Positions 3,796-20,901 of a stretch of DNA of 64,000 nt are shown in pieces. The DNA comes from Truepera radiovictrix DSM 17093. Lineage in GTDB: Bacteria; Deinococcota; Deinococci; Deinococcales; Trueperaceae. The translations under genes and the position numbers were made by a program. Where the stretch lies: the NCBI RefSeq assembly GCF_000092425.1, contig NC_014221.1, positions 2,423,001 to 2,487,000 of the forward strand, given 5' to 3'. The stretch's first letter is position 1. Each line of letters opens with the position of its first letter. The notes under the pieces were generated by a model. The model made no database searches and was not told where the DNA came from. It worked only from the letters and a program-made list of their open reading frames with translations.

Positions 3796-4311
3796 CTAGA
3801 AGTGGAAGTTGAACCCGAAGCGGCCGCGGAACGAACCGCGCGGGTTGTTGAAGTTGGGCGGCGCCACGACGCCGGGTTGCAGCTCGCCGAAGAGCCCGAT
3901 GCGCCCGAGCATCGCCTCGGCCCCCACGACGCCGTGGACCCCGAAGCGGCGCACGTCGGTGAGGCGGCGCGCGCTCTGGCGGTAGTAGCCGTCGACCCCG
4001 GCGCCCAGGTAGAGGTTGCTGTGGGTCGTGGTGTTGGGCGCGGCGCTCGCGCGCACGTTGACGTTGTCGGTCGTGAAGTAGTAGACCGGCACGAGCACGT
4101 CCAAGCTCGCCATCTCGGGGCGGGCGTCGCGCAGGCTCCCCTCGGCGCTCACGCGCAGCTCGAGCGACGGCGAGAGCGCGACGCCGAGGTGCGCGCCCGC
4201 CTTAAAGTCCTCGTTGACGTAGGGCGAACCGGTCGAGAGGCCAAAATAGAACGCCTGCGCGTGCGCGGCCCCCAGGACGACGAAAAGAAGGACAAACAGG
4301 GTTTTTTTCAC
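3796..4311 (-). CDS. Secreted, probable outer-membrane beta-barrel protein
   Basis: A 171-residue protein with a clear signal peptide (MKKTLFVLLFVVLGAAHAQA, cleavage near residue 20). The mature part has alternating polar/hydrophobic residues, many Gly and aromatics, and ends in Phe (FGFNFHF), which is typical of outer-membrane beta-barrels that insert through BamA. No enzyme motif is visible. The start is a GTG preceded at 4 nt by GGAGGTT. It is separated from its neighbours by an intergenic region on one side and a decayed locus on the other. The barrel assignment is inference from composition and the terminal Phe; a soluble periplasmic beta protein is an alternative. Confidence 0.7.
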   Translation of the reverse strand: MKKTLFVLLFVVLGAAHAQAFYFGLSTGSPYVNEDFKAGAHLGVALSPSLELRVSAEGSLRDARPEMASLDVLVPVYYFTTDNVNVRASAAPNTTTHSNLYLGAGVDGYYRQSARRLTDVRRFGVHGVVGAEAMLGRIGLFGELQPGVVAPPNFNNPRGSFRGRFGFNFHF

Positions 4312-4341
4312 GCGTAACCTCCACCGCCCACCCTAGCAGCC

Positions 4342-4505
4342 CTAGCTTAAGCGAAGTTTAAGAGGCTCGAGCCACCCCTTCTCCCGCGCGAGGCGCGCCG
4401 TGCGGTTGCTGACGTCCAACTTGCCGATCGCCTCCGAGAGGTAGAGCGCACCGCCCCGTCTGAAAGCCCGAGCTCGCGGGCGATCTCGGGGCTCGGGCGA
4501 GCGCC
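4342..4505 (-). pseudogene. Fragment of a LuxR/NarL-type response regulator (HTH part only)
   Basis: The DNA-binding end of a NarL-family response regulator is readable only across two frames. One frame gives EIARELGLSDGAVR; the continuation YLSEAIGKLDVSNRT followed by LAREKGWL is in another. Restoring one base near 4453 would give the usual VRSYLSEAIGKL of DesR-like regulators, so a 1-nt deletion broke the gene. The LAREKGWL end also looks a few residues short. No receiver domain with phospho-acceptor Asp can be found in the 4505-4655 stretch; that part is lost. Together with the broken ABC ATPase upstream (5100-5540) this looks like the remains of an ABC-transporter / two-component locus. 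Confidence 0.7.
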
Positions 4506-4654
4506 GTGCGCCCCCAGCCGAGCGCCCCGAAGTCGGGGGCAACCAGGGGCTGCACAAAGGCGCCGAGCAGCTACACCAGGTGCAAAGCGGGCTCCCACCC
4601 GAGGGCGGCGGGCGCGAGAGCGCAACACGGCGCGACCTTGACCCGCGAGGCCGC

Positions 4655-5038
4655 TTAGAAGCGCTCGAGCTCGAGCTCGCCGAAGATGACCGTGCCGCTC
4701 AGGCGCAGCGTCGGCGAAGCGTCCGAGAGCGCGGGCGGCACCCCGACCTCGTCGACGCTGCCCAGAATCGGCTGCGCGTCGCTCAGGACGCGCCACGAGG
4801 CGGGGACGCGCAGCTCGACGCCACCAAAAAGGACGAAGAACTCGAGCTTCACCTCCGGCGCGGCGAGCACCGCCTCGCGCAGGTCGAGGCGAATCGAACC
4901 GAACACGCACGACAGGTTGCCCCCTGAAACGTGCATCCCCGCAGCGCGCACCTCGGCGCTGCCGAAGATCACCGTGCGGTCGACGCGTTGGGCGGGTGCG
5001 GTGGGCGGGGTGTCGGGTGAGGCGGGGGTCGGGTCCAT
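4655..5038 (-). CDS. LiaF-like C-terminal-domain protein
   Basis: A 127-residue protein matching the C-terminal beta-helical domain of LiaF/VraT-type proteins (cell-wall-active antibiotic response). The pattern is TVIFGSAEVR ... SCVFGSIRLDLREA ... EFFVLFGGVELRVPASWRV ... LSGTVIFGELELERF, repeated short strands with FG turns. No membrane helices precede it, so it is the soluble domain only. The ATG at 5038 has AAAGGA about 9 nt before it. It lies between pseudogene fragments of an ABC ATPase and of a DesR-like regulator, the kind of locus such domains normally accompany; it may be the last intact member. The same frame continues upstream into the ABC fragment, but that part is not one protein with it. 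Confidence 0.72.
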   Translation of the reverse strand: MDPTPASPDTPPTAPAQRVDRTVIFGSAEVRAAGMHVSGGNLSCVFGSIRLDLREAVLAAPEVKLEFFVLFGGVELRVPASWRVLSDAQPILGSVDEVGVPPALSDASPTLRLSGTVIFGELELERF

Positions 5039-5099
5039 CGTCGATCCTTTCCAGCTGCTACCAGGCAGCCTCATGAGCCGCGCCCCGTAGGGCGATTGT

Positions 5100-5540
5100 A
5101 AGCCAAATCGGCTACGACGCTGCGGGCTACCCGTAGGTCTGGCCTTTGGGGCGACGTCTAGGCCCGTCGTCAGTTCGTCCAGGTTTAGCAGGTCGGGATC
5201 GCCCACGAGGGCGAGCGCGAGGTGCAGCCGCCCCTTCTGCCCGCCCGAAAGACTCCCGTAGAGCCGGCGCTCGAGCCCCGAGAGCCCCGCGCGCGCCACG
5301 ACCTCGCCCAACGGGAGCGGCTGCGGGTAGTAGGCGGCAAAGTGCGCTACGTGCTCGCGCACCGTGAGCGTCTCCGGCACGCCGGAGAGCTCGAGCACCG
5401 CCCCGACGCGCGTGCGGTTCGCCGCGCCCCGAGAAGTCGGCGCCGAAGAGCCGCGCGTCGCCCGCGGTCGGTTTGAGAAGCCCCAGCATGAACCCGACCG
5501 CTTCCCGGGCAGGGGCTTTGGGCCGGGGCACCGGCGCTAA
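5100..5540 (-). pseudogene. Broken ABC-2-type transporter ATPase
   Basis: The middle of an ABC ATPase is present in two frames. FMLGLLKPTAGDARLFGADF is in one; RTRVGAVLELSGVPETLTV and SLSGGQKGRLHLALAL are in a second, so there is a frameshift near 5420-5440. The Walker A loop is destroyed (a remnant with GK is seen in a third frame) and Walker B reads LLNLDELTTGLD, with Glu in place of the usual Pro. The sequence stops matching right after TTGLD, so the C-terminus and the permease gene are missing. The gene is therefore non-functional. Confidence 0.78.
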
Positions 5541-5621
5541 GCGCTGCACCCCGATACGCGTTGGCGGGGAGCAGCGCCGCCCCCGTCGTGCCGGTCTCCC
5601 CGTTGGCGCGAATGGGGCGCT

Positions 5622-5640
5622 AAACGGGGGGTGATCCCCC
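5622..5640 (-). terminator. Possible weak terminator after the carotenoid operon
   Basis: On the minus strand a GGGGG-ATCA-CCCCC hairpin starts directly after the stop codon and is followed by GTTT. The stem is short and the T run poor, so this is tentative. Confidence 0.35.
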
Positions 5641-7077
5641 TTAGCGGCGCACGCGACCCGCCAAGACGAGCGCCGCCGCGTGGCGCCCCGACAGGAGCGC
5701 CAGCGGGATCCCGCCCCCCGGGTGCACGGTGCCGTTCGCCAGCACGAGGTTGCGCACGCCCCGCAGGGTCTGCTTGGGCCGCAGGGTGGCCGCGAGCGAG
5801 TGCGGCGCGGCGCCGTAGATGGCGCCGCGGTGCGCGAAGCGCGCGAGGTAGGCGGGCGGCAAGACCCGGCGCACGCGGACGCGCTCCCGCACGTCCAGGC
5901 CGCGCCGCGCCAAGACGCCCAAGAGGTGCTCGGCGTAGCCCTCCCCCCCGTGCGCCCCAGCGGGCGCGGCCTCGGGGAGGGCGGGGGCGTTGACCAGCAC
6001 GAACCAGTTCTCGCAGCCCGGGGGGGCGTCGCCGACCTCCGACTTCGAGCTGATCGAGACGTAGAGCGTCGGGTCCGCGGGGAGCGCGCCGCGCGCGATC
6101 GCCCGGAATTCGGCGCGGTAGTCGTGCGGGAAGAGGATGTTGTGGTGCGCCAGCCCCGGCGTCTTTCCCTCGAGCCCCAAGAGCAGCACGAAACCCGACA
6201 GCGAAGGCTCTCGCCGCTCGGCCCGCGAGCGCCTCCCCAAAAGCCGGTGCGTGCGGATGAGGTCGAGCCCGGAGACCACCACGTCCGCCGCGAAGACCCC
6301 CGCGCTCGTGTGCGCCGCCGCGACGCGCCCGCTTTGCACCTCGAGGCGCTCGACGTGCACCCCCGTGTGCAGCGCCACCCCCAGCTTCTCGGCGAGCGCC
6401 GCGAGGCGCCGCACCACCCCCTTGATGCCGCCGACCGGGTAGAACACCCCTAAGCCCAGCTCCACCCAGGCGATGTTGTGCAGCACCGCCGGGGCGCGCG
6501 TGGGGTCGGCGCCGAAGTAGGTCGCAAAGCGCAAAAAGAAGGGCTCGAGGTCGCCCGTGGCGCCGAACTGCCGCAAAAGGGCGGGCAGGCGCTTTCCCGG
6601 GTGCGCTCTTAGCCCCCCGCCAAGGGCGTAGCGCAAGAGCTCGCGCGGCCCCGGCGCGTGCCCGAAGAGGAAGGTGGGGGCCGCCGCCTCGTAGAGCGCG
6701 CGCGCCTCGCGCACGAGCCGCCGGTACGCCCGCGCCTCGTGGGGCGTCAGCTGCGCGGTCGTCGCCTCGGCGTCTTTGAAAACGTCCCACACCCGCCCCG
6801 ACGGGTAGAGGTAGCGGCAGAGGGGGGAGAGCGGCCAAAAGACGGGGGGCGTCTCCCCCGCGCGCGCGAAGAGCTCCGTAACGATCTCGGGGAGCGTCCA
6901 GACGCTCGGGCCGAGGTCGAAGCGAAACCCGCCCGCCGCAAACTCCCCCGCCTTGCCGCCGACCTCGGGCTCCCGCTCCACGAGCGTCACCTCTAGCCCC
7001 GCGAGCGCTAGGTGCAGCGCCGCTGAGAGCCCCGCGAAACCGCCCCCCAAGACGAGCGCCGTTTTAGGGGCGCTCAC
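5641..7077 (-). CDS. Carotenoid desaturase of the CrtI/CrtD/CrtN family, probably CrtD-like
   Basis: A 478-residue FAD-dependent carotenoid desaturase. The N-terminus holds the dinucleotide-binding fold (ALVLGGGFAGLSAALHLALA, then VTLVEREPEVGGKAG). The C-terminus has the family signature LANGTVHPGGGIPLALLSGR, which also contacts FAD. GTG at 7077 overlaps the glycosyltransferase stop (GTGA) and was chosen over the longer ORF. Being last in an operon with a glycosyltransferase and a lycopene cyclase/CruF hydratase fusion, it most likely acts as a 3',4'-desaturase on a 1'-hydroxy carotenoid (CrtD role in deinoxanthin or myxol synthesis). A phytoene-desaturase role cannot be excluded, because no other CrtI candidate lies in the window. 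Confidence 0.82.
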   Translation of the reverse strand: MSAPKTALVLGGGFAGLSAALHLALAGLEVTLVEREPEVGGKAGEFAAGGFRFDLGPSVWTLPEIVTELFARAGETPPVFWPLSPLCRYLYPSGRVWDVFKDAEATTAQLTPHEARAYRRLVREARALYEAAAPTFLFGHAPGPRELLRYALGGGLRAHPGKRLPALLRQFGATGDLEPFFLRFATYFGADPTRAPAVLHNIAWVELGLGVFYPVGGIKGVVRRLAALAEKLGVALHTGVHVERLEVQSGRVAAAHTSAGVFAADVVVSGLDLIRTHRLLGRRSRAERREPSLSGFVLLLGLEGKTPGLAHHNILFPHDYRAEFRAIARGALPADPTLYVSISSKSEVGDAPPGCENWFVLVNAPALPEAAPAGAHGGEGYAEHLLGVLARRGLDVRERVRVRRVLPPAYLARFAHRGAIYGAAPHSLAATLRPKQTLRGVRNLVLANGTVHPGGGIPLALLSGRHAAALVLAGRVRR

Positions 7078-8168
7078 GACGCCCCCCCGTAGGTGCGGCC
7101 CTTCCAGGTGTAGGTGCGCGACAGCAGCGCGCGCCACCCCACCCGCCAGAGGGGAAAGGCCATCAGGGGCTGCAAAAACGCCTCCAGGGGGCTCCGGCGC
7201 GTTTTAAAGCAGGTGAGCGCGCGCTGAAAGGCGCCCATCGCCGCCGGCACCAACCAGAGCGGGTGCCAGAGCGACAGGGGCCACGCGAGCGTGTAGGCGA
7301 GGGTGTTGAGCAAAAGTGACGCCACGAGCTGCGGGCGCCCACCATGGGCCGCCACGATGTTTTTGGAGAAGCCCGCGACGGTCTCCTCGGCGCTCCGGTA
7401 CATGCGGGTGCTGAGGAGCTCGCCGCCGAGCGCTAGGGCTACCTTGAGCCCCTTGCCCTTGGCGCGCTGGCCCATACGCACGTCCTCCAAAACTTCGTCC
7501 CGAAAGGCGCGGTGACCGCCGACTTGCAGATACGCCGAACGCGTCCAGAGCATGCACTGGCCGTTCCCCGCCGAAAAGGCCGCGTCGCGGGTGCGCCGCA
7601 CGGCGGGGTACGGCAGATACCCCAGGAGGATAAGGTCGATTAAGGGCACCGTGAGGCGCTCGAAGAGGGTGTGCGTGCGCTGCCGCGGCCAGACGCTCGC
7701 GTACACCGCGTCGTGGCGTTCGGCAAAGGCGAGGAGCGCGCCCAAAGCCCCCCGCTCCCAGAAGACGTCGGCGTCGGTAAACACCACCAGCTCGCCCGAG
7801 GCCGCCCCCGCGAGCTGGTAGCAGGCCCAGTTCTTCCCCCCCCACCCCGCCGGTAGGGGCTCGCCCCGCAAGACCCTGAGCTGCGGGTGCTCGGCGGCGA
7901 AGCCCTGCAACACCCGCAGCGTGTCGTCCGTGGAGTTGTCGTCCAGGACGATCACCTCCGCCGCGCCCTGGGCCAGGAGGCCGGGGAGCGTCTCCGGCAG
8001 GGTCGCCGCTTCGTTGCGCGCGGGGACGAGGAGCGACACGCGGCGCCGGCGCACCGGCTCGGCGGGCGCGAGGACGGGAAACGTCGCGGCGTTGATGAGC
8101 AGCACGGCGAGCTGCACGCCCAAAAAGAGCGTCACGAGCCACCACAGCGCCGTCGCAGGCGGGCTCAC
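7074..8168 (-). CDS. Family 2 glycosyltransferase, probable carotenoid glycosyltransferase (CruC-like)
   Basis: A 364-residue membrane glycosyltransferase of the GT-A fold. An N-terminal helix (residues 5-30) is followed by VSLLVPARNEAATL, VIVLDDNSTDDTL and the metal-binding VVFTDADVFW (DAD in place of DXD). EDVRMGQRAKGKG resembles the ED motif that precedes the acceptor site. Two or three C-terminal helices (LAWPLSLWHPLWLVPAAM) anchor it. GTG at 8168 overlaps the upstream stop (GTGA). In green sulfur bacteria the pair CruC (glycosyltransferase) and CruD (acyltransferase) decorates hydroxy-carotenoids; here an acyltransferase domain is fused to the upstream protein, so glycosylation of a carotenoid 1'- or 2'-hydroxyl is the likely job. 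The substrate is inferred from context. Confidence 0.82.
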   Translation of the reverse strand: MSPPATALWWLVTLFLGVQLAVLLINAATFPVLAPAEPVRRRRVSLLVPARNEAATLPETLPGLLAQGAAEVIVLDDNSTDDTLRVLQGFAAEHPQLRVLRGEPLPAGWGGKNWACYQLAGAASGELVVFTDADVFWERGALGALLAFAERHDAVYASVWPRQRTHTLFERLTVPLIDLILLGYLPYPAVRRTRDAAFSAGNGQCMLWTRSAYLQVGGHRAFRDEVLEDVRMGQRAKGKGLKVALALGGELLSTRMYRSAEETVAGFSKNIVAAHGGRPQLVASLLLNTLAYTLAWPLSLWHPLWLVPAAMGAFQRALTCFKTRRSPLEAFLQPLMAFPLWRVGWRALLSRTYTWKGRTYGGAS

Positions 8169-10306
8169 GAGCGAAACACCCGCCCCACCCACGCCGCGCG
8201 CTCGTGCGTGCTTTTCGCGCCGCCTAGCCACGCCGTAAAGCCCGGCGGTGGCTGCTCCGCTTCGGCGCGGCGCAGCAGGTCGTCGAGGTCGCCTAAAAGC
8301 GCGTTGAGGGCCCCCTCGAGCGCCGCGGCGTCGGTCGCTTCAAGGGGCGCGCCTACGCTGAGGAGCGCCTCGGGGTGCTGCGCCCCGCGCACCGTGACGC
8401 GTATCGCGAGCGGCACCACCGGCACCCCCGCGCGCCGCGCGAGGTAGAGGACGCCGGGGCGCGTCCGTGACACCTGCCCGGGGGGGCGCAGCACCCCCTC
8501 GGGGAAGAGGATAAGGACCTCGCCGCGCGCGAGGCGCCGCAGCGCTTCGCGCACCTCGGTGGTCTTTAAAGCGCCGTGAGCGCGGAAAAAGGGGAAGCGC
8601 TCGACGGTCGCGTCCAACATCAGCCCGCTCAGGGGCCGGCCGAGGCGGCGGCCGATGAACCACGCCAAGTAGGGGTCCCACCACGCGTGATGGTTCGCCG
8701 CCAGGATAAAGCCCCCCTTGGGGAGCGCCCCCCACGGCCCGCGCGCGTAGACCCCGTGCAACCCCCGCCGCAGCGAACGCCGGATGATCCAGGGGAGGCA
8801 GCGAGCGATGAGCGCGACCAGGGCCCCTTGCGCGGCGCGCTTGAGGCGCGCCGCGCCCCCCACGGCCCAAGCGGTGGTCTGCTGCGGGAACGCCGCCCAG
8901 ATGCCGACCGCGCCCATCGCCACGAGCACCGCCAGCGCCGCCCACGGCAGGCCGAAAAAGAGCAGGCCGAAGGTCATGAGAAAGAGCTGCACCCAGAAGA
9001 CCGCGTGCAGGTCGCGCGGACGCTCCGTCTCCAAGCGGGGCTCGAGCCGCAGCAGCAGCGCCACCAAGACCCACCCCGCGGCGTACCACCCCACGAAGTT
9101 GCTCAGGGGCACCCCGTAGTACGCCCCCGACGCGAACGCCCAGAAGCCCTGCGACACCATGAGCGGGTCGAGCCCCACGTCCCACGCGACCAGCACCAGG
9201 GGCGCGAACCAGCGCGCGCTGCCCCGCGGGGCGAGCGCGAGGGCGATCATGGTGAACGCGAACCAGCCTAGAGGCACCAGCAGCGGCACCCCCAAGAGCG
9301 CCGGCCCCGGCGCGGTGTAGCGGTACGCCCCGAAGGGCACACCCGTGCGGTAGCCGAGCCACTCGACCACCACCCCGAAAAGAAAGGCGAGCGCAAAGAG
9401 CGACCACGCCCGCCGCCCGTAGCGCTCCAGGGCGCAGCCCAGCACCCCGAGGGTCAGCAGGAGCGTGCTGAGGTAGGCGAGCGGGACGAACGCCCCCGGC
9501 AGGAGCGGCGTCGGCACCATCGTCAGCACCCACAAGACGAACGCCACGCGCCACCAGCGGAGCTTGGCGAGCGCGCGCAACCGCCCTAACGACTCGGGCG
9601 CGAGGGCGAGCGTCATCCCGAAGACGATGAGCAGGTTTGTGAGCAGAAAAAAGAGCGCCTCCTCGACGGGCAGCCCTAGGGGCCGCCACCCCGTCGAGAG
9701 CGCCGGTGAGATCCACCAGATGCCCGCGCCGAGGGCGACGCGGTCGGCCAACCAGAGGTAGAGCGTCGGCAGCGCGGCGCTCGGCAGCACCCAGCGCCAG
9801 CGCCTGACGAGCAGGTCGCCGCCAAACCCCCACTGCAGCGCCAACACGGGCGCCGCCCACGCCGCGATGAGGCCGAAGTAGGTGCCGCGTTCGGTCGAGA
9901 GCGCGAGCACCCCGGCCGCCGCCAAGAGAAGCCACGCGAGCGCCCCGCCGCCCTGCACGAGGCGCGCGGTGTGGGCTCCTAGGGGCGGCCCCAAGCGCAC
10001 CGAACGCCCCAAGAGCAGCGTCAGCGTCCCCGTCAGCAGCGTCTGGAGGATGAAAAACAGGTACTCCTCGAAGGGCACCCACCCGACGGTGAAGAGCACC
10101 CGCCCCGCCCCGTACCCCCACACGCCGCGCGCCACCAGGTAGTTGTCCCACGGGGTGGTGTAGAGAAACGCCACGAGCGCGTGCAGGGCGAGGGCGGCGA
10201 GGCCGAAGCGGGGGAGCTCGCCGCGCCGCGCCGCGCGGCGCGTCAGCGCGCCGAGCAGCAGCAAAGGCGGCAGGAGGAAGACGAGGTGAAACTGCAAGTA
10301 GGTCAT
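8165..10306 (-). CDS. Three-part fusion: lycopene cyclase (CrtYcd type) - CruF-like hydratase - PlsC-type acyltransferase
   Basis: A 713-residue protein carrying three enzymes. Residues 1-240 are two lycopene beta-cyclase units of the CrtYc/CrtYd type, with PWDNYLVARGVWGYG (52-66), VPFEEYLFF (77-85) and LPVEEALFF (212-220). Residues about 265-470 match the membrane carotenoid 1,2-hydratase CruF (DUF422), including GVPFGAYRYT and VAWDVGLDPLM (373-383). Residues about 490-713 are a PlsC-like acyltransferase with NHHAWWD (538-544, the HX4D catalytic motif) and FPEG (601-604). The ATG at 10306 fits the usual start of the cyclase domain; an in-frame ATG 17 codons earlier is possible. It is first in an operon, followed by overlapping glycosyltransferase and CrtD-like genes. 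The predicted roles are cyclising one lycopene end, hydrating the other, then acylating the attached sugar (CruD-like). Confidence 0.88.
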   Translation of the reverse strand: MTYLQFHLVFLLPPLLLLGALTRRAARRGELPRFGLAALALHALVAFLYTTPWDNYLVARGVWGYGAGRVLFTVGWVPFEEYLFFILQTLLTGTLTLLLGRSVRLGPPLGAHTARLVQGGGALAWLLLAAAGVLALSTERGTYFGLIAAWAAPVLALQWGFGGDLLVRRWRWVLPSAALPTLYLWLADRVALGAGIWWISPALSTGWRPLGLPVEEALFFLLTNLLIVFGMTLALAPESLGRLRALAKLRWWRVAFVLWVLTMVPTPLLPGAFVPLAYLSTLLLTLGVLGCALERYGRRAWSLFALAFLFGVVVEWLGYRTGVPFGAYRYTAPGPALLGVPLLVPLGWFAFTMIALALAPRGSARWFAPLVLVAWDVGLDPLMVSQGFWAFASGAYYGVPLSNFVGWYAAGWVLVALLLRLEPRLETERPRDLHAVFWVQLFLMTFGLLFFGLPWAALAVLVAMGAVGIWAAFPQQTTAWAVGGAARLKRAAQGALVALIARCLPWIIRRSLRRGLHGVYARGPWGALPKGGFILAANHHAWWDPYLAWFIGRRLGRPLSGLMLDATVERFPFFRAHGALKTTEVREALRRLARGEVLILFPEGVLRPPGQVSRTRPGVLYLARRAGVPVVPLAIRVTVRGAQHPEALLSVGAPLEATDAAALEGALNALLGDLDDLLRRAEAEQPPPGFTAWLGGAKSTHERAAWVGRVFRS

Positions 10307-10398
10307 GGCGCCGAAGGGCTCGTGGCTTGTAGGGAGCAGGTGGCGCAACCGTGCCAAGTGCTGAGACAGGCGTACCGAGTCGCTGGTTTAAAACGCAT

Positions 10399-10482: not shown

Positions 10483-12021
10483 TCATACCCGCTTGCGCTC
10501 CAGATCCTTGAGCACCACCCGCGCCGCGTTCCGGCCCGAGGCCCCCATGATGCCACCGCCCGGGTGCGTGCTCGCCCCCGTCAGGTAGAGCCCCCGCAGG
10601 TGCGTCCGGTACTCCGCCATCCCCAAAAAGGGCCGCAGGGCGAACATCTGGTCCAAGCTCATCTCGAGGTGCATGACGTTGCCCCGGTAGAGCCCCAAGT
10701 GGCGCTCGAGCCACGCCGGGTGCTGAAACAGCCGCCCGACGACCTTCGCCTTGGTGCCGGGGGCGTGGACCTCGAAAGCGTCCAGGATGGTCTCGGCGAC
10801 CTCGTCCTCGATGTCGTCCCAGCGCCGAGCGCCGGCGAGCTCATAGGGGAAGTACTGCGCCCAGAGCCACAGCACCTCCCCCCCGGGTGGCGCCAAGGTG
10901 TCGTCCACGGCGCTAAAACTCATGGCCACTAGGGGCGGGTCGGAGGCGGGGTGGCCCGCCAGGTACTCGCCGTACGCGGCATTTAGCTGCGCCCGGTCGC
11001 GGCAGATGAGCCCTAGCGCGCGCCGCGCCTCGTCACCGGGGTGGGCGCGGTAGCGGACCCGCTCGCGTAGCGCGAGCCGCAAAATCGCTCCGAAACCGTT
11101 GCCCACGCGCATGCTGCGGCTCCCCTCGGGGCGGTGCGCCTCGGGCAGAAGTTTACCGAAGGTCTCTAGTGCGTGCGCCCCGGCGACCACCGTGCGCGCG
11201 GTGTAGACCTCCCCCCCGACCTGCACCCCCGTCGCGCGACCCCCCTCGACGAGGATGCGCTCGGCGGGCGCGTTGACGAACACTTGGCCGCCGTGCGCCG
11301 CGATGTGCCGCGCCAGCGCCTGCGTGAGCATCCCCGAACCGCCCTTCGGCCGCGCCATCCCGCCCTCGTGGTAAAGGGGCTGCCAGAGGACGAAGGGCGA
11401 CGAGAAGGGCTCGCTGGGCGGCGGCCCCGACTGCGCCGCCATCCACACCAAGGGCGCTTTGACCCGCTCCTCTTGAAAGTAGCTGTCGACGACCTCGCCG
11501 TAGGGTTTGAGGATCATGGACAGGGCCCGCTTCCAGTCGCCGCGCACCGCCTTACCGAAGACCATCTTGCGGCCCAGGTTTAACGGGCTCGGCGTGCTCA
11601 AAAAGAGCTCTTTGACGACCCTGCCGAAAGGGCGCCAGTCGTCCAGAAAGCGCCGGTACGCCTCCCCCTCGCCCGGGTAGGCGCGCTCGAGCCCCTCGAT
11701 GGTCCGCTCCTCGCTGCGCCACACGAAGACGCTCTCCCCGTCCTCGTAGGGGGCGAAAAAGAGCGGGTCGATGTCGAGGTACTCGAGCCCGAAGCGCTCG
11801 AGCCCCAGCTCCTCGACGATGGGGGTGAGGCGAATGAGGATGTGGGCGCTCCCGCCCAGGTCGAAGCGGTAACCCGGAATGATCTCCTGCGTGGCGACCG
11901 CCCCCCCCACGATCTCGCGGCGCTCGAAGACGCCGACTCGGTAGCCCGCCTGGGCGAGGTAAGCGCTGGTGATCAGCGCGTTGTGGCCCGCGCCCACGGT
12001 GATGACGTCGAAGTCTGGCAC
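10483..12021 (-). CDS. crtO: Carotene ketolase CrtO
   Basis: A 512-residue FAD enzyme of the CrtI superfamily that adds a 4-keto group to beta rings of carotenoids. It resembles the D. radiodurans CrtO as I remember it, through stretches such as [18 protein letters not shown] (FAD-binding), [49 protein letters not shown] and the C-terminal [20 protein letters not shown]. Length is normal. The GTG start is 5 nt after TAGAGT on the minus strand with no Shine-Dalgarno, so it is probably leaderless and transcribed apart from the cyclase operon. With a lycopene cyclase nearby, the likely substrate is a mono- or bicyclic carotene, as in deinoxanthin synthesis. Confidence 0.93.
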
Positions 12022-15674: not shown

Positions 15675-16574
15675 TTACGGGGCGCTGCAGATGCCGTAGA
15701 CGGCTTTGGGAATCAGCGCGAGCCGTTCGACGGGGCGCAAGTAGGCGCGCTTGGTCAGGTTGTCGTAGCCGTTTTGCCGAAGCTTGTTGAGGATCCCCTC
15801 GTAGTTGAGCGCAGCTACCCCGACCGCCGCCGCCGCTACGCCGTTGAGTTTGGGGATCCCCTGCCACCCCTCGCGGTAGAGCGCGCAGGTGCGCTCGGCG
15901 AGCTCCTCCAAAAGGGCGATGTAGCGGTCGCTGACGACGCCCGCCTCGAGCGAAGCGCGGGTCACGCCGTGCTTGTCCATCAGCTCGAGGGGCAGGTAAA
16001 GGCGCCCCATGGCGAGGTCTTCGCCGACGTCGCGCAAGATGTTGGTGAGCTGCATCGCCTGGCCGAGCGCTAGGGCGCACTGCAGCGTCGCCTCGCCACC
16101 GCGGTAGCCCGCGATCGGGGCGATGAGCAGCCCGACGACCCCGGCGACGCGGCGGCAGTAGAGCATCAGCTCGTCCATGGTGTGAAAAGGACGGTTGTCG
16201 AGGTCGGACTCGAGCCCCAAGTAGAGTTCGTCGAAGGCGCTCCGGGGGACCTCGTAGTGCTGCAGCACCCAGTGCAGACCGACCTCTAGAAACGCTCCGG
16301 GTTGCGGCTCGCCGGCGTAGGCGCGCTCGATCCCCTCTTGCCAAACGAGCAGGCGCCTGCGCCCCACCTCCGGCGAGGGCGCCTCGTCGACGGCGTCGTC
16401 GCCGCTGCGACAGACGGCGTAGATCACCGACACGGCGCTCCTTTCACGGGCCGGAAAGAAGCGCGAACCCAAGTAGAAGGTGCTCGAGTGCGCGCGGGTG
16501 AGCTGCGCACAGGCGGCGACGGCCTCTTTGGGTTCGAACACGTGGGTCAGCCCGGACGCTCGCGCACCGATCAC
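15675..16574 (-). CDS. crtB: Phytoene synthase
   Basis: A 299-residue squalene/phytoene synthase that condenses two geranylgeranyl diphosphates to phytoene, the first committed step of carotenoid synthesis. Both Asp-rich Mg-diphosphate motifs are visible: CRSGDDAVDE near residue 57 and NILRDVGEDLAMGRLYLP near residue 180. ALNYEGILNKLRQNGYDN near the C-terminus is typical of the CrtB subfamily. I prefer the GTG at 16574, preceded at 6 nt by GGAGGCG, to the GTG nine codons earlier. It is monocistronic, downstream of ispG in the same orientation with a 200-bp gap, and supplies the cluster at 5.6-12 kb. Confidence 0.95.
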   Translation of the reverse strand: MIGARASGLTHVFEPKEAVAACAQLTRAHSSTFYLGSRFFPARERSAVSVIYAVCRSGDDAVDEAPSPEVGRRRLLVWQEGIERAYAGEPQPGAFLEVGLHWVLQHYEVPRSAFDELYLGLESDLDNRPFHTMDELMLYCRRVAGVVGLLIAPIAGYRGGEATLQCALALGQAMQLTNILRDVGEDLAMGRLYLPLELMDKHGVTRASLEAGVVSDRYIALLEELAERTCALYREGWQGIPKLNGVAAAAVGVAALNYEGILNKLRQNGYDNLTKRAYLRPVERLALIPKAVYGICSAP

Positions 16575-16774
16575 AGTCGCCTCCGATAGGCTCTCCCCCA
16601 CCCCATGTGGCCCCGACGCATTGGGTCAGTTCCGCCGGCGATCGTCATGTGGCCCAATCATGACACGCGCCAAAAAAGCCCAAGTACGACCCACCCCACG
16701 TTCTCGCCGCGCTAGGTGTGCTCTTGCCGCCGCCCTCGCCGCCGACTTGGGACTTGGCCGCAGCTGGCGACGCG

Positions 16775-19916: not shown

Positions 19917-19933
19917 GGGTTGCCAAGCTGCGA

Positions 19934-19970
19934 GGCGCGAGGGTCGCCGCAGGCGACCCTCGCGCCTTTT
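19934..19970 (+). terminator. Rho-independent terminator
   Basis: A perfect 15-bp stem (19934-19948 with 19952-19966, 3-nt loop) is followed by TTTT. It isolates the PfpI-type gene from the rhodopsin gene. Confidence 0.92.
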
Positions 19971-20016: not shown

Positions 20017-20901
20017 ATGCTCACCATGGAAAACCTGCTCACCTACTCGCCCGTGTCCTACAGCATCGTCTCCAACACGCTCACGCTCGGGTACGCGGCG
20101 ATGGCCGCGGGGCTCGTCTACTTCGTGACCACCAGCAAACGCGCCGCCCCACCCTACCGCCTCTCCTCGACGCTCTCGGCGGTGGTGATGGTGAGCGCCT
20201 TTTTGGCGCTCTATCAGCTCCACCAGACCTGGCTGAGCGCCTTTACGTTTAACGGCGAGGTGTGGGAAGGCGGCGCGACCGCCTTTAACAACGGCTACCG
20301 CTACATCAACTGGTCGATCGACGTCCCCATCCTGCTCACGCAGCTCCTCATCGTCATGGGGTTTACCGGCGCGCGCTTTCGCCGCCTCTGGTTGCAGTTC
20401 GTCGTCGCCGGCCTGGCGATGATCTACACGGGGTACGCGGGGCAGTTCTATGAGGCTACCGACAGCGCCCGGCTCTACCTCTGGGGGGCTATCAGCACGG
20501 CGTTTTTCCTCTGGATTCTGGTGCTCGTGCGGCGGACCATCTTCGACCCGCCGGACGCGCTGCCGGAGCGCGCCGCGGGGCTCATGCGGGGGGTGTGGTG
20601 GGTGCTCCTCGGGTCGTGGCTGCTCTATCCGGGCGCCTACTTAATGCCCGTCTTCGCCCTCTCCGAAGGGGGCGTGGTAGCACGGCAGATCTCGTTTACG
20701 GTCGCCGACGTCGTCTCGAAGGTGATCTACGGGGTGATGCTGAGCCGCGTCGCCGAGCTGCGCAGCCAGGCCGACGGCTACGCGCACGCGCTCGAGTCCG
20801 AAACGCAGCCCAACCCCGACCGGCGCGGGGGTGCGGGGGTCGCGGCGGTGCAGCCCCAGGGGGGGCGCGCCCCGCGCAAGGGGCGGGTCCACCGCTCCTA
20901 G
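20017..20901 (+). CDS. Microbial rhodopsin with the NDQ motif, predicted light-driven Na+ pump
   Basis: A 294-residue seven-helix retinal protein. Helix C reads RYINWSIDVPILLTQLL, giving Asn98, Asp102 and Gln109 at the three functional positions; this NDQ combination defines sodium-pumping rhodopsins such as KR2. Helix G has DVVSK, with the Schiff-base Lys235 and counter-ion Asp231; Arg95 is also kept. Gly157 in helix E (LWGAIST) sits where bacteriorhodopsin has Trp138 and xanthorhodopsin has the Gly that admits an antenna carotenoid. The C-terminal 45 residues are polar and disordered. ATG 20017 gives the longest form; ATG 20026 is equally likely, since the only TANNNT box (TATGCT, 20016-20021) overlaps the first. 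A terminator upstream shows it has its own promoter. No retinal-forming dioxygenase gene is in the window. Confidence 0.95.
   Translation: MLTMENLLTYSPVSYSIVSNTLTLGYAAMAAGLVYFVTTSKRAAPPYRLSSTLSAVVMVSAFLALYQLHQTWLSAFTFNGEVWEGGATAFNNGYRYINWSIDVPILLTQLLIVMGFTGARFRRLWLQFVVAGLAMIYTGYAGQFYEATDSARLYLWGAISTAFFLWILVLVRRTIFDPPDALPERAAGLMRGVWWVLLGSWLLYPGAYLMPVFALSEGGVVARQISFTVADVVSKVIYGVMLSRVAELRSQADGYAHALESETQPNPDRRGGAGVAAVQPQGGRAPRKGRVHRS

Follow-up and report, generated by a model that had tools for sequence, protein, structure and literature searches.

The rhodopsin locus and the genes around it

The window, a stretch of 64,000 nucleotides covering positions 2,423,001-2,487,000 of the single-contig Truepera radiovictrix genome (3,260,398 bases), contains an NDQ-type microbial rhodopsin gene on the plus strand and a set of carotenoid genes on the minus strand (Table 1). 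A probable terminator separates the rhodopsin from the preceding DJ-1/PfpI gene, and this strong hairpin with its short T run suggests that the rhodopsin is probably transcribed alone; it should be noted that a consensus terminator scan requiring five T did not list the hairpin.

Table 1 Features of the rhodopsin locus, with positions counted from the first base of the window.
Feature	Position	Strand	Basis
CrtI/CrtD-type carotenoid desaturase	5641..7137	-	Profile match
CruG/HpnB-like family 2 glycosyltransferase	7074..8231	-	Profile match
Lycopene cyclase (CarR) domains fused to CruF-like carotenoid hydratase, one ORF	8165..10357	-	Profile match
CrtO-like carotenoid ketolase	10483..12021	-	Best NCBIfam match BCarotKetCrtO, below its cut-off
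Squalene/phytoene synthase family	15675..16601	-	Profile match
17-bp perfect hairpin then TTTT, probable terminator	19932..19968	+	Lies between DJ-1/PfpI gene and rhodopsin
NDQ-type microbial rhodopsin, 294 aa, ATG start (rds2 or rds4 / TrNaR)	20017..20901	+	ORF, Pfam, homology, AlphaFold2 model
Ala64, codon GCG (KR2 L74)	20206..20208	+	Alignment
Asn98 (KR2 N112)	20308..20310	+	Alignment
Asp102 (KR2 D116), Schiff-base counterion by homology	20320..20322	+	Alignment
Gln109 (KR2 Q123)	20341..20343	+	Alignment
Gly157, helix-E fenestration position (KR2 G171, XR G156, GR G178)	20485..20487	+	Alignment
Leu202, codon CTG, after helix-F Trp (KR2 T216, XR G201, GR G223)	20620..20622	+	Alignment
Lys235, retinal attachment (KR2 K255)	20719..20721	+	Alignment

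The carotenoid set also includes IspG on the minus strand. As several of the matches fall below curated cut-offs, the genes are named by resemblance. The CrtO-like, cyclase-CruF and CruG-like genes, whose proximity had been noted in an earlier reading of this DNA from sequence only, do lie nearby, at 8.0-12.9 kb upstream of the rhodopsin on the other strand. Judging from known pathways, these genes would fit a pigment resembling salinixanthin or deinoxanthin. T. radiovictrix RQ-24T, an alkaliphile from a hot spring in the Azores, is red-pigmented, and its pigments were left uncharacterised in the genome paper (PMC3072082). A location 8 kb away on the opposite strand provides no tie between the carotenoid set and the rhodopsin, and red pigment alone explains the presence of carotenoid genes in a red, radiation-resistant cell.

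The genome contains four rhodopsin genes. These were listed in a 2013 paper, in which rds2 and rds4 resembled the second Dokdonia rhodopsin (60% and 47% identity), one gene was truncated and one was called sensory. The NDQ pair was later named TrNaR1 and TrNaR2 (PMC4585134, PMC5118547), so both the window protein and its family had already been published, as had the beginnings of the antenna idea. ADI16038.1, which is one or other of the two T. radiovictrix NaRs, gave no photocurrent in mammalian cells, consistent with poor membrane expression (PMC5531490). The second NDQ protein (L002) has a canonical residue where KR2 has L74 and falls inside the KR2-like group in our tree, which argues that the two Truepera NDQ proteins have separate histories. 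The truncated gene, rds1, is xenorhodopsin/ASR-like (L030, about 3900-6000; chromosome about 193.9-196.0 kb) and is split after the first helix by a TnpB-type insertion, and its reading frame also changes in helix G. Another rhodopsin (L004, 1486-2244; chromosome about 3167 kb) is a relative of MrHR, a chloride pump from cyanobacteria, and has an unusual motif, with the helix-C residues Ala-Ser-Leu vs Thr-Ser-Asp in MrHR.

Family, motif and transported ion

We compared the window rhodopsin to 33 DTE proteins and to other NDQ rhodopsins, giving a set of 57 NDQ sequences (including KR2, IaNaR and the window protein) from Actinomycetota, Bacteroidota, Cyanobacteriota, Chloroflexota, Spirochaetota, Planctomycetota and other taxa. 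The protein matched Pfam Bac_rhodopsin at 133 bits (cut-off 24.6), and its best relatives of solved structure were sodium pumps: IaNaR 8jh0 (E = 5.9e-73) and KR2 4xtl (E = 2.3e-65). No model was matched in the NCBIfam search, and a plasmid collection gave only distant matches (30%). In the tree the protein was placed in the NDQ clade, apart from the DTE pumps, with branch support of 100/100. The AlphaFold2 model had a mean pLDDT of 94.8 and its nearest solved folds were those of ErNaR (the top match), KR2 and IaNaR (TM 0.90-0.96, with ErNaR and KR2 at about 0.95).

Both the Asn98-Asp102-Gln109 motif and the retinal Lys235 proposed in the sequence-only reading were confirmed, as they aligned with N112/D116/Q123 and K255 of KR2. 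The protein contains the full RNDQDK set, that is NDQ on helix C plus the equivalents of R109, D251 (D231 in the window protein) and K255, and all of KR2 S64, S70, R109, Y154, Q157, E160, R243, D251, S254 and K255 are retained. Identity to KR2/NaR proteins is about 45-50%. Unlike KR2, the window protein has Ala64 for L74, Leu202 for T216, Asn20 for H30 and Thr88 for D102, the last being at the interprotomer Na+ site.

The conserved motif and KR2 polar residues, the nearest folds being those of sodium pumps and the strongly supported NDQ clade favour reading the product of this gene as a light-driven ion pump of the NDQ type (KR2/NaR family) that binds retinal, and the fenestration residues (see below) favour one that lacks an antenna. 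We consider this reading probable as a whole, although the Ala64 substitution, the silent Truepera NaR ADI16038.1 and a frame-shifted blh gene (see below) count against it. By analogy to KR2, light would isomerise the retinal on Lys235 and Asp102 would take up the Schiff-base proton; Na+, or H+ if Na+ is scarce, would then enter from the cytoplasm past Gln109, be held briefly near Asn98 and Asp231 and exit outward.

The residue at the KR2 L74 position makes the identity of the ion less certain. In KR2, L74 flips jointly with N112 upon Na+ binding and the L74A mutation dramatically lowers pumping (PMC7195465, PMC11006869). Of the published NDQ subgroups, Subgroup 1 has Leu or Ile at this position and Subgroup 2 has Glu; the other 56 of the 57 NDQ proteins likewise have one of these three residues, with Ala found only in the window rhodopsin. 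By this residue the protein fits neither subgroup, while still lying inside the NDQ clade, and we found no literature report of its Ala64. The closest sequence relatives are Glu-type proteins from actinobacteria (Blastococcus, Modestobacter, Micromonospora; about 55-61%), and the top structural match, ErNaR, also belongs to Subgroup 2, from which the window protein differs in that Ala64 replaces the additional Glu counterion. Support for placing it with all of the Glu-type rows was weak (69/33) and a position with the KR2-like clade could not be rejected (p-AU 0.3), so we could not clearly establish that Ala64 replaced a Subgroup 2 Glu, a step that would take one base (GAG to GCG).

Na+ transport should therefore not be taken for granted, and Na+ pumping by this protein appears less certain than its NDQ motif suggests. 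The natural Ala64 could weaken the Na+-holding switch at Asn98, leaving a protein which is mainly an H+ pump, a poor Na+ pump or something with another role, such as a sensor. The effect of L74A in KR2, the occurrence of Ala in this one protein among 57, the Asn20 and Thr88 substitutions and the presence of a second, canonical NDQ protein in the same genome all speak for this. However, all of the remaining Na+-path residues are retained, H30 or D102 is missing in many NDQ proteins and neighbouring residues may compensate; on balance we judge this reading to be unlikely.

Retinal supply

The only blh/BCD (beta-carotene dioxygenase) locus found (L030, chromosome 196.08-196.93 kb) is approximately 1 Mb from the window rhodopsin, with the broken rds1 just upstream of it, and shifts frame by +1 close to a run of T. 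A search of the genome for an RPE65-type oxygenase found none. An unbroken blh match was present in seven Trueperaceae relatives, and we found no report in the literature of a frame-shifted blh in the T. radiovictrix genome. In Blastococcus (L005), a blh-like reading frame lies directly 3' of the NDQ rhodopsin gene.

With its single blh locus frame-shifted and no RPE65 homologue found, RQ-24T might rarely load the opsin with retinal, so that the protein would either use outside retinal only or act without it, for instance as a lipid scramblase, a role which has been proposed for opsins in genomes without the last retinal enzyme (PMC12805836). This seems very improbable, since the frame change near the T-run is possibly a sequencing error, or could be tolerated, and the opsin gene is intact with a conserved retinal pocket.

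Fenestration and carotenoid antenna

The sequence-only reading had also proposed a carotenoid-harvesting sodium pump, citing the CrtO, CruF and glycosyltransferase genes nearby. On this view, a 4-keto carotenoid produced by those genes would sit in the opening at Gly157 and pass its light energy to retinal, as in xanthorhodopsin (XR). Gly157 does align at the fenestration, with the glycines of KR2, XR and Gloeobacter rhodopsin (GR). However, Gly was found at this position in all 57 NDQ proteins, KR2 included, and in 32 of the 33 DTE proteins; Gly157 therefore carries no antenna information, and we rejected it as a distinctive sign of one.

A second opening sets the antenna pumps apart from most sodium pumps, the window protein among them. 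It lies at the residue following the helix-F Trp, which KR2 numbering on the alignment confirmed to be T216. This residue was Gly in 31 of the 33 DTE proteins, including XR, GR, Kin4B8 and thermophilic rhodopsin (TR), and in psXR (HMMER alignment), vs Met (n = 26), Thr (n = 7), Phe (n = 7), Asn (n = 7), Leu (n = 4), Trp (n = 3) and Gly (n = 3) among the 57 NDQ proteins. In the window rhodopsin it is Leu202. On its own, this residue determines binding in the Dokdonia PRO95 NaR: as Anashkin 2018 is related in PMC10026069 and PMC9728251, carotenoid is bound by the T216G mutant and not by the wild type (T216). XR, GR, Kin4B8 and TR share the helix-E glycine and the general fold with the window protein, but have the DTE motif, Gly after the helix-F Trp and Ile at XR I205; identity to XR and GR is about 29-31%. 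Changing T179 or I227 of GR to Gly impairs carotenoid binding (PMC9151804), and the window equivalents of these residues are Ala158 and Gly206. We also counted how many of the seven carotenoid contacts common to XR and GR (PMC3587595) are retained, and rejected this count as a discriminator, as the window protein keeps four of seven, as do KR2 and the salinixanthin-binding TR.

An XR-like antenna on the window rhodopsin is thus unlikely, and the fenestration glycine being family-wide, with Leu202 filling the place of the antenna-pump Gly, suggests that the protein most likely uses retinal alone. The case for an antenna draws on the placement of Gly157, on the CrtO-, CruF- and CruG-like genes within 8-13 kb and on DDR2, the Nonlabens dokdonensis NaR, which is likewise of sodium-pump type with Gly171. 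DDR2 binds salinixanthin 1:1 in vitro, which counts against the antenna-free part of our preferred reading and is the sole case of a natural NaR shown to bind carotenoid that we found in the literature; efficient energy transfer was, however, not detected (PMC10026069). Given this, the invariant helix-E glycine, Leu202 and the residues at GR T179 and I227, we regard the xanthorhodopsin-like arrangement as very improbable. Taken overall, the earlier reading was right as to the NDQ type, the fenestration glycine and the keto-carotenoid genes nearby, but its carotenoid-harvesting sodium pump was not supported. That a natural NDQ pump could bind its own 4-keto carotenoid in a non-xanthorhodopsin geometry despite Leu202 and harvest light for Na+ transport is likewise very improbable; if true, we know of no earlier native sodium pump with an antenna.

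The three NDQ proteins with Gly after the helix-F Trp (L064, L065 and L066, from genomes G289, G246 and G268) are actinobacterial and have Gly at both the helix-E and helix-F positions and Ile at XR I205, and blh homologues are present in all three genomes. The CrtO model matched these genomes under its cut-off, and also matched 12 of 14 control genomes, so that its matches tell nothing about them. On their residues, these proteins are stronger candidates than the window protein for a sodium pump with a native antenna, and the best that we found.

The antenna-free NDQ pump remains our preferred reading of the window gene. Its Ala64 can serve as a natural experiment on the N112-L74 switch which is thought to gate Na+ in KR2. 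For sodium-pump rhodopsins as a family, the helix-E glycine alone does not predict a carotenoid antenna and has to be read together with the helix-F position.
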